Positions 1,355-26,320 of a stretch of DNA of 64,000 bases are shown here, piece after piece; position 1 is the stretch's first letter, and each line of letters begins with the position of its first letter. The notes under the pieces were generated by a model, which searched no databases, was not told the origin of the DNA, and was given only the letters and a program-made list of their open reading frames with translations. The stretch spans positions 1,382,501 to 1,446,500 of the forward strand of contig NZ_CP015247.1 in NCBI RefSeq assembly GCF_001891125.1, in the 5' to 3' direction. Made by a program: the position numbers and the translations under genes. Source of the stretch: Leuconostoc suionicum (lineage in GTDB: Bacteria > Bacillota > Bacilli > Lactobacillales > Lactobacillaceae).

Positions 1355-2707
1355 TTAATCCAGAACTGTAACCCGCTTGCTATTGGTTAACAAATAGCCA
1401 CCCACACCAAGAACCGCACCAACAACTGCCGGCACAACCCAACCAAATCCAAGAGCCGCAAACGGTACAAAGTGGTGATAACCATTAACTAAACTTTGGA
1501 CGTGGCTTGTTGTAGCCAATGGTGAGCTAGCCAAGGCATCAAGGAATGCTGGTATAGTAACAGAAGCAACCACAAAGCGATAAACTACTGAAGATTTTTT
1601 GAAATACTTACTAAAAAGCGATAATAGGATTAAGACCAAGGCAAATGGGTACAGCAACATCAATACAGGCACTGACCAAGCAACAATGTTCGTCAACCCA
1701 GCATTAGCTGTGACGAATGATCCAAATGCAATAACACGTAGCCACCATAGGTAACTCACTTTTGGAAATACACGGTGCAAGTCTTGCGCAAATGATACAA
1801 ACAGCCCCATTGCTGTCGTAAATACAGCTAGTGTCACGATTACCCCTGTCAGCGCCGTCCCAAAGTTGCCCATATAGTGGCTAACAATTTGAGCGAAAGC
1901 AGCACCACCATTATCAGAAGCTTTAAACAAACCTAAGCTAGTAGTACCAACCAAAACCAATACCGCATATAATACCGCTTCAGCTAGGATACTTAACAAA
2001 CCAGCCTTTGCCAATACCTTAGATACTTGTTGCTTTTGAAAGCCTAATCCTCTAACTGCGTACACAACTGATACCGCTAAAGCTAACAGCGCAATACCGT
2101 CCATAGTATTGTAACCGTCCAAAATACCTTGGAATGCTGCATTGCTTTGATAAGCAGCAGACACCGCTTGATGTGTATCACCCATTGGCAAAACTAATGA
2201 CAAAACAAGTACCACAAGTAACAAACCTAAGAAAAGTGGATTAAGATATTTCCCGACCCATTTCAATAATCCCGACTCCTTGACAGTTAGGAAGTAAGCT
2301 AAGCCAAAGAACACAGCGGAAAATACAAACATCACCACACCTTGATATTTAAGTGGTACAAAGGGTGCAATACCCATTGAAAAAGCTGTCGCTGCTGTAC
2401 GTGGTGTCCCAAAAAATGGACCAATCGTCAAATGAATAGCTACCAAGAAAACCGTACCAAACCAAGGTGCTACTGGTTTAGCAATATCATAAACGCTTTG
2501 ACTGTTTGTTAAGCTCACCGCCATCATTGCCAAAAACGGCACGACCGTTCCGGTAATCAAGAAACCGATTGTCGCTGGTAACCAATTACCGCCTGATAAT
2601 TGTCCCAATTGGATTGGAAAAATCAAATTTCCTGCCCCAAAAAACATCCCAAATATGAGTGATGCCACTAAAACTAATTGTTTCCATGTCAATTTCTTCT
2701 CAACCAT
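1355..2707 (-). CDS. brnQ: Branched-chain amino acid transport system II carrier protein
   Basis: Sodium- or proton-coupled importer of Leu, Ile and Val in the cytoplasmic membrane (LIVCS family). The 450-residue protein has about 12 hydrophobic segments and the family signature GAGNLIFPIQLG near residues 25-36, plus FGTPRTAATAF around residue 100. A good ribosome site (AGGAG) precedes the ATG. The gene is transcribed alone from a promoter 300 bases upstream, across an Ile-rich leader peptide and an attenuator terminator, so expression is probably tied to charged tRNA-Ile. No clear terminator was found after the stop. Confidence 0.95.
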   Translation of the reverse strand: MVEKKLTWKQLVLVASLIFGMFFGAGNLIFPIQLGQLSGGNWLPATIGFLITGTVVPFLAMMAVSLTNSQSVYDIAKPVAPWFGTVFLVAIHLTIGPFFGTPRTAATAFSMGIAPFVPLKYQGVVMFVFSAVFFGLAYFLTVKESGLLKWVGKYLNPLFLGLLLVVLVLSLVLPMGDTHQAVSAAYQSNAAFQGILDGYNTMDGIALLALAVSVVYAVRGLGFQKQQVSKVLAKAGLLSILAEAVLYAVLVLVGTTSLGLFKASDNGGAAFAQIVSHYMGNFGTALTGVIVTLAVFTTAMGLFVSFAQDLHRVFPKVSYLWWLRVIAFGSFVTANAGLTNIVAWSVPVLMLLYPFALVLILLSLFSKYFKKSSVVYRFVVASVTIPAFLDALASSPLATTSHVQSLVNGYHHFVPFAALGFGWVVPAVVGAVLGVGGYLLTNSKRVTVLD

Positions 2708-2800: not shown

Positions 2801-2843
2801 GAAAATAAAAAAGACGAGTTACTATGATTCTAGTAGCTCGTCT
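2801..2843 (-). terminator. Attenuator terminator in the brnQ leader
   Basis: Minus strand shows a 13-bp stem (AGACGAGCTACTA paired with TAGTAACTCGTCT, one mismatch) followed by six T. It lies between the Ile leader peptide and brnQ, so it must be bypassed for brnQ expression. Its 5' arm contains AGCTACT, which can instead pair with GGTAGCT just upstream, giving an antiterminator. Confidence 0.85.
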
Positions 2844-2914: not shown

Positions 2915-2974
2915 CTATCTAATGATAATAATGCTGATAATAATTTGTTCAGTTGTTGTTGATTGATATGTCAT
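2915..2974 (-). CDS. Isoleucine-rich leader peptide of brnQ
   Basis: A 19-codon frame, MTYQSTTTEQIIISIIIIR, with seven Ile codons (five ATT, two ATC) just before the stop. It starts about 30 bases after a consensus promoter and ends just before a set of mutually exclusive hairpins leading to the terminator at 2801-2843. This is the layout of ribosome-stalling attenuation: lack of Ile-tRNA stalls the ribosome on the Ile run. The ribosome site is weak (GAGAA). Function is inferred from sequence alone. Confidence 0.8.
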   Translation of the reverse strand: MTYQSTTTEQIIISIIIIR

Positions 2975-22830: not shown

Positions 22831-23973
22831 TTAAATCATTTCCAAGTGTAATTGTTGTGGCTTTGCCCAACCCATCTTACGCATGAAACGATAACCAACA
22901 AATGAAACGATCACGGGTACACCTACGCCGATAATCATGTAAGCGGCAAACGCAGCAGGATTTGAACCAGCCAATGCCAACGGAACGATAAACGAATTAA
23001 ATCCAATACCAGCCATTGAGAAAGGTGCAGTAACATTAAACGCGATTGTTGCGATTGGTGCAGCAATTGCGGCACCGATCATTGGTGGAATAATCAAGGC
23101 AGGATTCTCTGTCAAATTAGGAAATTGAATCTTTGGTGTAACAATACCTTGAGCAATTGTTGCGCCAATTTTGTTTTCGTGAAATGACATTGCGGGGAAG
23201 CCAACGAATACAGCTGTTGTACCAATTAAGATTGCTCCTGCAGCCTCTGGTGAAGTTACACCCGTTGCGCCAATTGCAACAGCTAATGCTGCTGCTGAAG
23301 CTGGTGTCATCGTCATTGCACCAAAGACCATTGCCACAATAGCGGTACCAATAATTGGATTGACAGCGACACTAGAAGCAATGAATTTTCCAACTGCAAC
23401 CAAAGCTGGCGTTGTTACTGCTGCCAAATAATAACCTGAAACAGTACCAACAATTGTTGTGGCGGCAGGAACAATGACCATGTCCAGAGGTGTTTTACCA
23501 CTCAACCACTTGCCAAACAATACTGCAATCAAACCAGCAATAACAGCTGATATTGGTTGTCCAGTAGTCATCACAGCTGAACCAGCAGCTTGTGCACCAG
23601 CATATCCTGTTGCTGTGACGCCTTGCACAGCCTTGTCAGTGAAGAAAACAGCATTCGCACCAACCGCCGAAGCAGCCATAGCACTAAACATCACCATAGT
23701 ATTGGTTTTCATTTGTGAAGCAATCGCCGCTCCAAATGCTGCCGGTAACATAATCTTTGTAATTGCGCCCATTTGCACCATTGGCGCCCAATGGATGAAT
23801 CCAGCAATTGTTTGTAACAACAAGCCCATGCCCAAAGTAACCAAAATGGCATTTGATACTGCAGCACTAACTTTATAAACTGTATCACGGATTGATTCTT
23901 TCTCTTGCACAGCCTTTTCTTTAATTGCATCTGTATTGATCTGACGTTGTGGTGTAATTGCGTTTTGTGCCAT
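22831..23973 (-). CDS. PTS_EIIC_2 family membrane protein, probable amino-acid-linked transporter
   Basis: 380 residues, strongly hydrophobic with about ten segments rich in Gly and Ala, ending FMRKMGWAKPQQL. It resembles the membrane family annotated as PTS sugar transporter subunit IIC (PTS_EIIC_2), but there are no EIIA or EIIB domains or genes nearby and no phosphorylation site, so a true PTS role is doubtful. ATG at 23973 has AGGAG 7 bases upstream. The gene sits behind a Leu-rich leader peptide and an attenuator terminator, which suggests a link to leucine or other branched-chain amino acids, for instance uptake or export. Substrate is inferred only. Confidence 0.8.
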   Translation of the reverse strand: MAQNAITPQRQINTDAIKEKAVQEKESIRDTVYKVSAAVSNAILVTLGMGLLLQTIAGFIHWAPMVQMGAITKIMLPAAFGAAIASQMKTNTMVMFSAMAASAVGANAVFFTDKAVQGVTATGYAGAQAAGSAVMTTGQPISAVIAGLIAVLFGKWLSGKTPLDMVIVPAATTIVGTVSGYYLAAVTTPALVAVGKFIASSVAVNPIIGTAIVAMVFGAMTMTPASAAALAVAIGATGVTSPEAAGAILIGTTAVFVGFPAMSFHENKIGATIAQGIVTPKIQFPNLTENPALIIPPMIGAAIAAPIATIAFNVTAPFSMAGIGFNSFIVPLALAGSNPAAFAAYMIIGVGVPVIVSFVGYRFMRKMGWAKPQQLHLEMI

Positions 23974-24028
23974 GATATTTCTCCTGTTTAATAACTTAAT
24001 TCCAATATGAGCTACTAACAATCGCTGA

Positions 24029-24068
24029 GAAAAATAAAACGTCCCAACGATTGCTCGCTAGGACGTTT
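24029..24068 (-). terminator. Attenuator terminator before the PTS_EIIC_2 gene
   Basis: Minus strand shows a 14-bp stem (AAACGTCCTAGCGA with TCGTTGGGACGTTT, some G-U) capped by GCAA and followed by TATTTTT, 56 bases upstream of the gene start. Confidence 0.9.
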
Positions 24069-24072
24069 CCTA

Positions 24073-24146
24073 CCTAACCAGCTACTCTGACTCTCTTAGT
24101 AAAGTCTAGTAGCTGATTAATTGCTCAAATAACAACCTACTAGACT
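24073..24146 (-). promoter_or_regulatory. Competing hairpins of the Leu attenuator
   Basis: Minus-strand RNA segments: 1 AGTCTAGTAG (24137-24146) pairs with 2 CTACTAGACT (24103-24112), 10 bp perfect. Segment 2 can instead pair with 3: AATCAGCTACT (24108-24118) with AGTAGCTGGTT (24076-24086). Segment 3, GCTGGTTAGG (24073-24082), can pair with CCTAGCGAGC (24053-24062) in the terminator 5' arm and block it. Segment 1 overlaps the leader stop codon. Confidence 0.75.
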
Positions 24147-24208
24147 CAAATGAGAAGGAGGTTGAGGAGGAGTGCGTTATTTTGATGTGCTTGAACATTT
24201 TTAGTCAT
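24146..24208 (-). CDS. Leucine-rich leader peptide
   Basis: 20-residue frame ending NNALLLNLLLI, with six Leu codons, five of them the uncommon CTC. GGAG lies 7 bases before the ATG. The frame begins about 45 bases downstream of a consensus promoter and its stop overlaps the first hairpin segment, the classical arrangement of a leu-type attenuator. It controls the PTS_EIIC_2 gene. Confidence 0.85.
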   Translation of the reverse strand: MTKNVQAHQNNALLLNLLLI

Positions 24209-24258
24209 GTTACGTCTCCATTTTTTGAGCGAATTACTCGCTTGTTTCTATGAGTAAT

Positions 24259-24287
24259 AATATACCCTAATAATATTTATATGTCAA
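24259..24287 (-). promoter_or_regulatory. Promoter of the Leu leader / PTS_EIIC_2 gene
   Basis: Minus strand TTGACA (24282-24287), 17-base spacer, TATATT (24259-24264). Confidence 0.85.
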
Positions 24288-25362: not shown

Positions 25363-25405
25363 AAAAAACGATCTGGTGATAGAAATTATCACTTGATCGT
25401 TTTTT
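25362..25405. terminator. Bidirectional terminator
   Basis: ACGATC and GTGATA arms pair with TATCAC and GATCGT, flanked by A and T runs; serves the convergent methyltransferase-like and DUF368 genes. Confidence 0.85.
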
Positions 25406-26239
25406 ATTTGTACTTTTCTTCTAAACTGCTCATCCAGTGACCTACCCATATGCCGAGGATGAATAGGATAAGACTTATAAATCCACTCATTATGTTAAAG
25501 CCACTATAATCAGCGACTGGTGGAATAACAATTAAAAGCGTTGATACCACAACAATTCCTAAAATAAAATGGTACACTTTAGCATAATAGTGATGTAAAA
25601 GATAGTTCATTAATTTTGAAAAAAGGATTAATGTTAACATGCCACCAAGTGCTATTGGCAAAAATACACTTATATCAGCACGTTTAAATCCGGCTAACAT
25701 TGGGTCAAACAATCCTAGGTATAACAATAAGTTTGATGGACTTAACCCTGGGACAATAACGCCTAACGCGATTAGTGCCCCGCCAACATCCAAGAAAAGA
25801 AATTAATCGGCATGTTCCCAAAGATGGCCGTCATATTATATAGAAATAATCCACCAACAACTATTGTGACGACGAACAATATCCAGTCGCTCAGGTTCCG
25901 ACCATACTTGCCACTTTCCTTTGTCAGAGCTGGTAAAGTGCCAATAATGGCCCCAGCAAACCCCCACAAAATGATTACTTTATATTCTACAAGCAAAAAT
26001 TCTAATGGTCGGCTTAATAAAATAATACCAGCAATACCACCCAATCCCACTGGTAGAAAAAACCAAAAATCTTTCTTAAAATTCTGCCTCAAATGCGCCA
26101 TGAAGTTCAGCATTCGTTCATACAAACCAAGTATTGCCGCTAATACGCCACCAGATACACCAGGAAGAATAAACCCTAGAGCAATGAATATCCCTTTGAA
26201 AAAGCGTATAAACCACTCTTTAATGTTACTATTGTTCAT
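25404..26239 (-). pseudogene. DUF368 membrane protein, interrupted by a frameshift
   Basis: Two adjacent frames together make one DUF368 protein: the first (ATG 26239) contains the family motif LPGVSGGVLAAILGLYERM and ends INFFSWMLAGH, the second continues ALIALGVIVPGLSPSNLLLYLG. The break is at the G run on the minus strand at 25778-25781, where adding one G would restore SWMLAGALIALG. DUF368 proteins are polyprenyl-phosphate related membrane proteins; members have been described as undecaprenyl phosphate translocases. Whether the shift is a real mutation, a slippery site or a sequencing error cannot be decided here. Confidence 0.85.
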
Positions 26240-26320
26240 AAGTAGCACCTCAATATGATGTATATTATTGTTCTAAGTGTTTTACTGCATACTGCCAATT
26301 ACACTAAGCTTAAAAATTGC

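Follow-up and report, generated by a model that had tools for sequence, protein, structure and literature searches.

The PTS_EIIC_2 gene of Leuconostoc suionicum is, with good confidence, controlled by a his-type ribosome-mediated transcription attenuator that senses charged tRNA-Leu, and its product would be an IIC-fold membrane protein that imports leucine, a function we infer from the regulation. Judged from its sequence, the attenuator is genuine and belongs to a known class; what is new is the gene under its control, which encodes an IIC-fold protein and has no PTS gene among its seven neighbours. The evidence comprises rare Leu codons clustered in a leader ORF, stems that can form in alternation, a terminator, and conservation with compensation in part of the pairs. 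Coordinates refer to the window, i.e., the whole 64,000-nt stretch of DNA analysed, except where a locus (L-number) is named, and all leader elements lie on the minus strand.

The controlled gene (22831..23973, minus strand) encodes 380 aa and is preceded by a sigma-70-type promoter, TTGACA-17 nt-TATATT (24259..24287), which matches the consensus at 11 of 12 positions and retains TTGACA in 19 orthologous leaders. Promoter-like matches in the leader region are fewer than expected by chance (4 vs a shuffle mean of 8.0), so that the promoter call rests on match quality and conservation. A Shine-Dalgarno GGAG (24216..24219) precedes the 20-aa leader ORF MTKNVQAHQNNALLLNLLLI* (24146..24208), with codon order CTC CTC CTC (AAC) CTC CTT CTC followed by ATT TGA; the Leu codons occupy 24172-24164 and 24160-24152. 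In the long ORFs of the window, no Leu codon is rarer than CTC (38 of 1089 Leu codons), yet it accounts for five of the six in the leader. The leader can form the stem chain A:B, B:C, C:D, D:E and E:F of the his-type layout. Segment A (CAACCU, 24159..24164) lies within the Leu codons and spans the invariant Asn codon, a position that would account for the Asn amid the Leu run; its partner is AGGUUG of segment B. The latter (GUCUAGUAGGUUG, 24133..24145) begins immediately 3' of the stop codon and pairs with A or C; C (CAGCUACUAGAC, 24104..24115) pairs with B or D; and D (GUAGCUGGUUAGG, 24073..24085) pairs with C or, as an antiterminator, with E plus the terminator loop (CCUAGCGAGCAAU, 24050..24062; D:E duplex -14.1 kcal/mol). 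The intrinsic terminator, E:F (24036..24069), is followed by a U-rich tail. Overall, the leader folds at -69.5 kcal/mol vs -44.6 for shuffles (z -6.0; 0/200 shuffles as good). GCUCAAA (24230..24224), 5' of the leader Shine-Dalgarno, can additionally pair with UUUGAGC (24129..24123) between B and C, enclosing the leader ORF; this pairing is present in most of 20 aligned leaders and absent in L035 and L036.

A previous sequence-only reading of this DNA had described the promoter, the 20-codon frame behind GGAG with its six Leu codons, five of them CTC, and a stop codon overlapping a 10-bp hairpin. All three are found here, the hairpin being the 10-bp pairing AGTCTAGTAG:CTACTAGACT of B, together with the last base of the stop codon, to C. 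The terminator it counted at 14 bp is present with a stem of 15 pairs, and its antiterminator pairing exists but is refined to D with the left arm of the terminator plus the loop. Its set of rival stems likewise stands, except that it missed the pairing of the Leu codons themselves with B.

In the proposed mechanism, shortage of leucyl-tRNA would stall the ribosome on the CTC run, where it covers A; B:C would then form, D would pair with the left arm and loop of the terminator, and the gene would be read. When leucine is plentiful, the ribosome would reach the stop codon and cover A and B, upon which C:D would form and the terminator would fold. Without translation of the leader, A:B, C:D and E:F would form and transcription would stop as well. 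An untranslated leader should thus terminate rather than read through, because the Leu codons themselves pair with B.

Orthologues of the gene (86-100% identity) occur in 19/19 Leuconostoc genomes searched, and the leader lies upstream in every one of them. The N-terminal half of the leader peptide is variable in this genus, whereas the Leu-Asn-Leu core and the stems are kept; the C-terminal end reads LLLNLLLI* in 16 genomes, LLLNLQLI* in two and LLRNLLLI* in one. A Leu-rich leader precedes the gene in 27/27 named loci from Leuconostoc, Periweissella beninensis, Fructobacillus, Convivina and two further relatives, a set that overlaps heavily with the 19 Leuconostoc genomes (many identical genomes). 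A uniform scan was run for a Shine-Dalgarno sequence, an ATG ORF of 12-45 aa with at least six of eight residues L/I/V, and a terminator, with 89 ORFs as controls (45 from the window and 44 from other stretches). At the stricter threshold, it found a leader before 18/18 Leuconostoc orthologues (the near-identical L010 omitted) vs 0/89 controls. At the looser threshold, which admitted 1/89 controls, leaders were scored before 18/18 Leuconostoc leuP, 11/11 Leuconostoc ileP, 13/16 other leuP, 4/6 tandem copies, 11/13 other ileP-like genes and 4/31 other family homologues; the rows omitted were one duplicating the window locus, another nearly so, a truncated locus and a masked copy. The scan missed leaders visible by eye, e.g., in L044, L050, L087 and L090. 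The interpretation as a Leu leader-peptide attenuator made in the sequence-only reading is supported by conservation, by the Leu leaders of the named loci and by compensated stems.

Pairing was assessed in an alignment of 20 leaders (18 from Leuconostoc plus L035 and L036; L010 again omitted). In the terminated state, 96.2% of cells are paired and five pairs have changed on both sides, a result reached by 0/500 shuffles. The antiterminated state (B:C plus D:E) has 97.0% of cells paired and one doubly changed pair, a level reached by 23/500 shuffles, and rests mainly on conservation because only this one pair has changed on both sides. A:B is invariant in the alignment except for one pair, which is broken in 10/20 leaders. 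The central codon of A and its partner change jointly in other genera, e.g., to CAGC:GCUG in L050 and CGC:GCG in L088 (by eye). When A and B were swapped among 30 leaders, cognate combinations averaged -15.69 vs -12.46 kcal/mol for non-cognate ones (0/20,000 permutations); these leaders were hand-picked representatives out of 61. Of 66 found, five had been taken in a wrong frame or ORF and were omitted: L043, L046 and L048, and in L044 and L045 the second copy. The duplex of D with the left arm and conserved loop of the terminator amounts to -14.0 or -14.1 kcal/mol in 17/20 leaders and to -10.9 to -12.2 in three.

Folding with ribosomes at the usual textbook footprint makes the switching order proposed in the earlier reading plausible, with reservations. 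When a ribosome is placed on the first Leu codon and the transcript ends at C, the minimum-energy fold includes B:C in 20/20 leaders. Once E is included, the fold constrained to B:C has the D:E core in 20/20 leaders and lies below the fold constrained to C:D in 13, the window's own among them; the C:D fold is lower in seven, including L035, for which the ribosome was set on an isolated Leu codon farther upstream. The C:D fold of the window leader lacks the D:E core, and terminator and antiterminator are mutually exclusive there, with weak compensation for the antiterminator. The six core D:E pairs coexist with C:D in 11/20 leaders, though not in the window's own, and exclusion of the two stems is therefore not clean everywhere. 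If the terminator loop is left out, C:D prevails at equilibrium even when a ribosome is stalled, so that the switching model needs co-transcriptional order; with the loop, both states are close.

Leader-peptide attenuators of Enterobacteria, such as those of his, ilv and leu, combine control codons in a short ORF with alternating stems and a terminator. The A-F layout is common to the his leader and the Leuconostoc leader, and the likeness is one of layout, as the enterobacterial attenuators control biosynthetic operons whereas the Leuconostoc leader controls a PTS_EIIC_2-type membrane protein. The attenuator of the branched-chain amino acid (BCAA) operon ilv-leu of Staphylococcus aureus was described as a Leu/Ile-rich 26-aa leader peptide with a terminator (Kaiser 2018, PMC5794164), i.e., a Firmicute BCAA leader peptide and terminator as in Leuconostoc. 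In that description, the freed motif pairs with the poly-U tail of the terminator, whereas D of the Leuconostoc leader pairs with the left arm and loop, and the target is a biosynthetic operon rather than an IIC-fold protein. Regular leader-peptide attenuation in Firmicutes has also been reported for His leader peptides of bacilli, at hisS paralogues (Naville and Gautheret 2010, PMC2965389); these concern histidine and hisS paralogues instead of leucine and a PTS_EIIC_2 gene, and the main text of that article names neither Leuconostoc nor leucine. The Leu/phe leader RNA RF01743 of Lactococcus lactis (Weinberg 2010, PMC2864571) comes likewise from a lactic acid bacterium and, going by its name, is a leader for Leu/Phe, but it gave no match to the window leader in an Rfam search at E up to 10. 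No T-box (RF00230) match was obtained for the window leader either, at the Rfam gathering cut-off or at E up to 10. Sub-threshold Rfam matches of the leader to Spot 42, a miRNA, a snoRNA and a scaRNA were rejected, none being above its family cut-off.

The same genome links this leader to leucine synthesis. The leader motif CTYCTCCTCAACYTNCT, with at most one mismatch, occurs at two places in the genome, here and before leuA (reversed-pattern control, 0). There it belongs to the Leu leader MRNQATVQINITNAALLLNLLRQTLAS* of leuA-leuB (L128 2608..2525, minus strand), which shares with the window leader the ALLLNLL core, CTTCTCCTCAACTTGCT, the A:B pairing and a terminator (by eye); the N- and C-terminal parts of its peptide are unlike those of the window leader. 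The gene was assigned to leuA (2-isopropylmalate synthase) by best matches, though under the NCBIfam curated cut-offs. A usual LeuA carries a C-terminal leucine-feedback domain, which may be absent here because the protein has only 389 aa with Pfam matches to HMGL-like and HCS_D2. Across 11 Leuconostoc genomes, the motif occurs at the leader of the window gene in all 11 and at a further place in nine; the four of these that were checked, the window's genome and L188-L190, have it before leuA. Among the one-mismatch matches inspected outside Leuconostoc (L161-L185), none revealed a convincing leader.

Isoleucine and valine are represented as well. An Ile/Val leader ending in INVVIII* or a close variant precedes a paralogue of the window gene (44% identity) in 18/18 readable Leuconostoc loci, the contig of a 19th being too short upstream. 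Within the window, the Ile leader MTYQSTTTEQIIISIIIIR* (2915..2974, minus strand) precedes brnQ (gene from 2707), which exceeds the TIGR00796 cut-off and so counts as a BCAA carrier; a stem resembling a terminator, with a T-run (2843..2807, minus strand), lies between leader and gene. An ilvD gene is present in the genome as well. At L128 9118..9062 (minus strand), the leader MNKKIKKLNNILIILLLN* and, by eye, a terminator-like stem were seen before a 300-aa ORF divergent from ilvD; this ORF has no Pfam or NCBIfam match and looks by eye like an Rgg-type regulator.

Beyond the genus, a homologue at E 1e-60 was found in 103/251 genomes of the family and none in 148/251. At the level of the order and the stricter threshold, a BCAA leader precedes 11/24 homologues and 13/24 fail the scan (controls, 0/89). 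In a quick tree of 78 PF13303 proteins (79 supplied, one omitted by the program; leader labels assigned by hand, some long branches flagged), a branch with SH-aLRT 98 has the Leu-leader genes on one side. The Ile leaders require two changes on this tree, since they occur in one group and also in tandem second copies that lie next to the Leu group. Such tandem copies occur in L037, L038, L039, L040, L044 and L045, the first with a Leu leader and the second of Ile type (weak in L044 and L045). A homologue in L065 (53% identity) has a same-strand T-box directly upstream (1809..2061, minus strand; E 3.8e-16) that scores 73.6 bits, below the Rfam gathering score of 93. Its specifier position, located by the GAA...XXXA rule (PMC5794164), reads CUC, a Leu codon. 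This PTS_EIIC_2 family member would thus be under T-box control by tRNA-Leu, and because the T-box stands in place of a leader peptide, at least two unrelated leucine-tRNA sensors precede family members. The T-boxes in L083, L084 and L088 and a plus-strand T-box in L065 were assigned to other genes by position; the last (2236-2477) precedes an ORF resembling 2-keto-4-pentenoate hydratase (by eye). The search for Leu-rich leaders and covarying stems in homologues that the earlier reading called for was positive in the named loci and in the terminated state, but among 31 more distant family homologues, 26 show neither a BCAA leader nor a T-box. Distant homologues in L066, L068, L069 and L070 are preceded by a terminator and by leader ORFs that are long and very rich in I/L/V (e.g., MAPSAIVLTIIILVLVIIIVRAVRSRIPAF), which by their sequence are BCAA leaders of another design. 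Another PF13303 paralogue (L121 7660-10929, minus strand) lies behind an aminotransferase and a D-2-hydroxyacid dehydrogenase gene, a neighbourhood that suggests conversion of amino acids to hydroxy acids together with transport.

Induction by leucine shortage is what one would expect of a gene whose product supplies leucine, and we infer from this regulation that the protein imports either leucine or a 2-oxo/2-hydroxy precursor with a branched chain; for isoleucine/valine, the paralogue with the Ile/Val leader would have the same role. The guess of the earlier reading that the substrate may be leucine or another branched-chain compound thereby gains strong, though indirect, support from the leader of that paralogue, the Ile leader of brnQ, the motif before leuA and the T-box in L065. 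That the attenuator is real but serves a carrier of a branched-chain 2-oxo/2-hydroxy acid (e.g., 2-hydroxyisocaproate), to be transaminated to leucine, is the main alternative for the substrate, since two distant PF13303 paralogues of the genome lie directly downstream of D-2-hydroxyacid dehydrogenase genes, one also of a class I/II aminotransferase gene. We regard it as unlikely, given that these paralogues share no more than 24% and 22% identity with the window protein, no BCAA leader was seen before either of them, and no such enzyme gene occurs among the seven ORFs near the window gene.

A carrier of sugars seems less likely still. The family assignment itself is firm, with PF13303 as the sole domain found in the protein (224.2 bits vs a curated cut-off of 28.9; E 3e-66). 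The AlphaFold model (pLDDT 83.7) has the IIC fold of sugar permeases and aligns with MalT (6bvg; Z 17.3, 322 residues aligned, rmsd 4.3) and PtsG (8qsr; Z 16.9, 306 aligned, rmsd 4.0), so that the family name is right about the fold. This resemblance would suit a true sugar PTS IIC whose leader is a general starvation sensor, with leucine as a proxy for nutrient state. Such a role is hard to reconcile with a leader codon type that changes with the paralogue, from Leu to Ile/Val, and clusters on the protein tree, or with the presence of the same leader motif before leuA, and we consider it improbable. In agreement with the earlier description of a PTS sugar IIC family gene without PTS partners here, no PTS domain was found in the seven neighbouring ORFs (two of them without any Pfam match), and EIIA and EIIB are neither fused nor adjacent; unlinked partners may lie elsewhere in the genome. 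One gene near the leader, VCA0040-like (undecaprenyl phosphate translocase-like; 25404..26248, minus strand), consists of two overlapping ORFs matching two halves of the profile, likely through a frameshift. In PTS IIC proteins, a conserved Glu (GITEP) and a His have a role at the sugar site. No Glu or His column reaches 90% in 51 homologues of the window protein, while H328 and E395 are invariant in three sugar IICs of the same genome, two sets whose positions are not equatable as the hhalign comparison between them (probability 1.1%) is uninformative. Searches of solved structures by sequence and of NCBIfam returned no relative of, or match for, the 380-aa protein. Among the papers listed by searches of the open-access literature, none treats PF13303/PTS_EIIC_2 as a BCAA carrier or describes the window leader, an absence that is weak evidence; the single PF13303 paper found (PMC6952197) concerns fructooligosaccharides and oligosaccharide transporters, and PMC1262725 treats Actinobacteria. 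Finally, it is very improbable that the stems work at the level of translation or function as a small RNA, as a weak similarity to Spot 42 (27.5 bits, far under the family cut-off of 80) and a short U-rich tail in relatives such as L018 and L021 might suggest, since a terminator hairpin lies between leader ORF and gene in all 20 aligned leaders, with 97.1% of its cells paired.

Transcription attenuation of a leucine importer is thus the preferred reading at the window gene. More broadly, the protein family probably imports BCAAs rather than sugar, because the window gene has a leucine-sensing leader like that of the leucine-synthesis genes and its relatives have Ile/Val versions. We lean towards a wider scenario, in which a Lactobacillales branch of the IIC fold of the PTS glucose superfamily has left the PTS and imports BCAAs or their 2-oxo/2-hydroxy acids, with Leu and Ile/Val paralogues whose specificity can be read from the leader codons, including tandem copies with Leu first and Ile-type second. 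BCAAs matter for growth and flavour in food-fermentation bacteria. If this scenario is true, a family annotated as 'PTS sugar IIC' would be misnamed, a sugar-carrier fold would have been turned to amino acids, and a set of transporters would be added to the leader-peptide attenuators described in Firmicutes. The leader codons would then give a ready prediction of the substrate of each paralogue.
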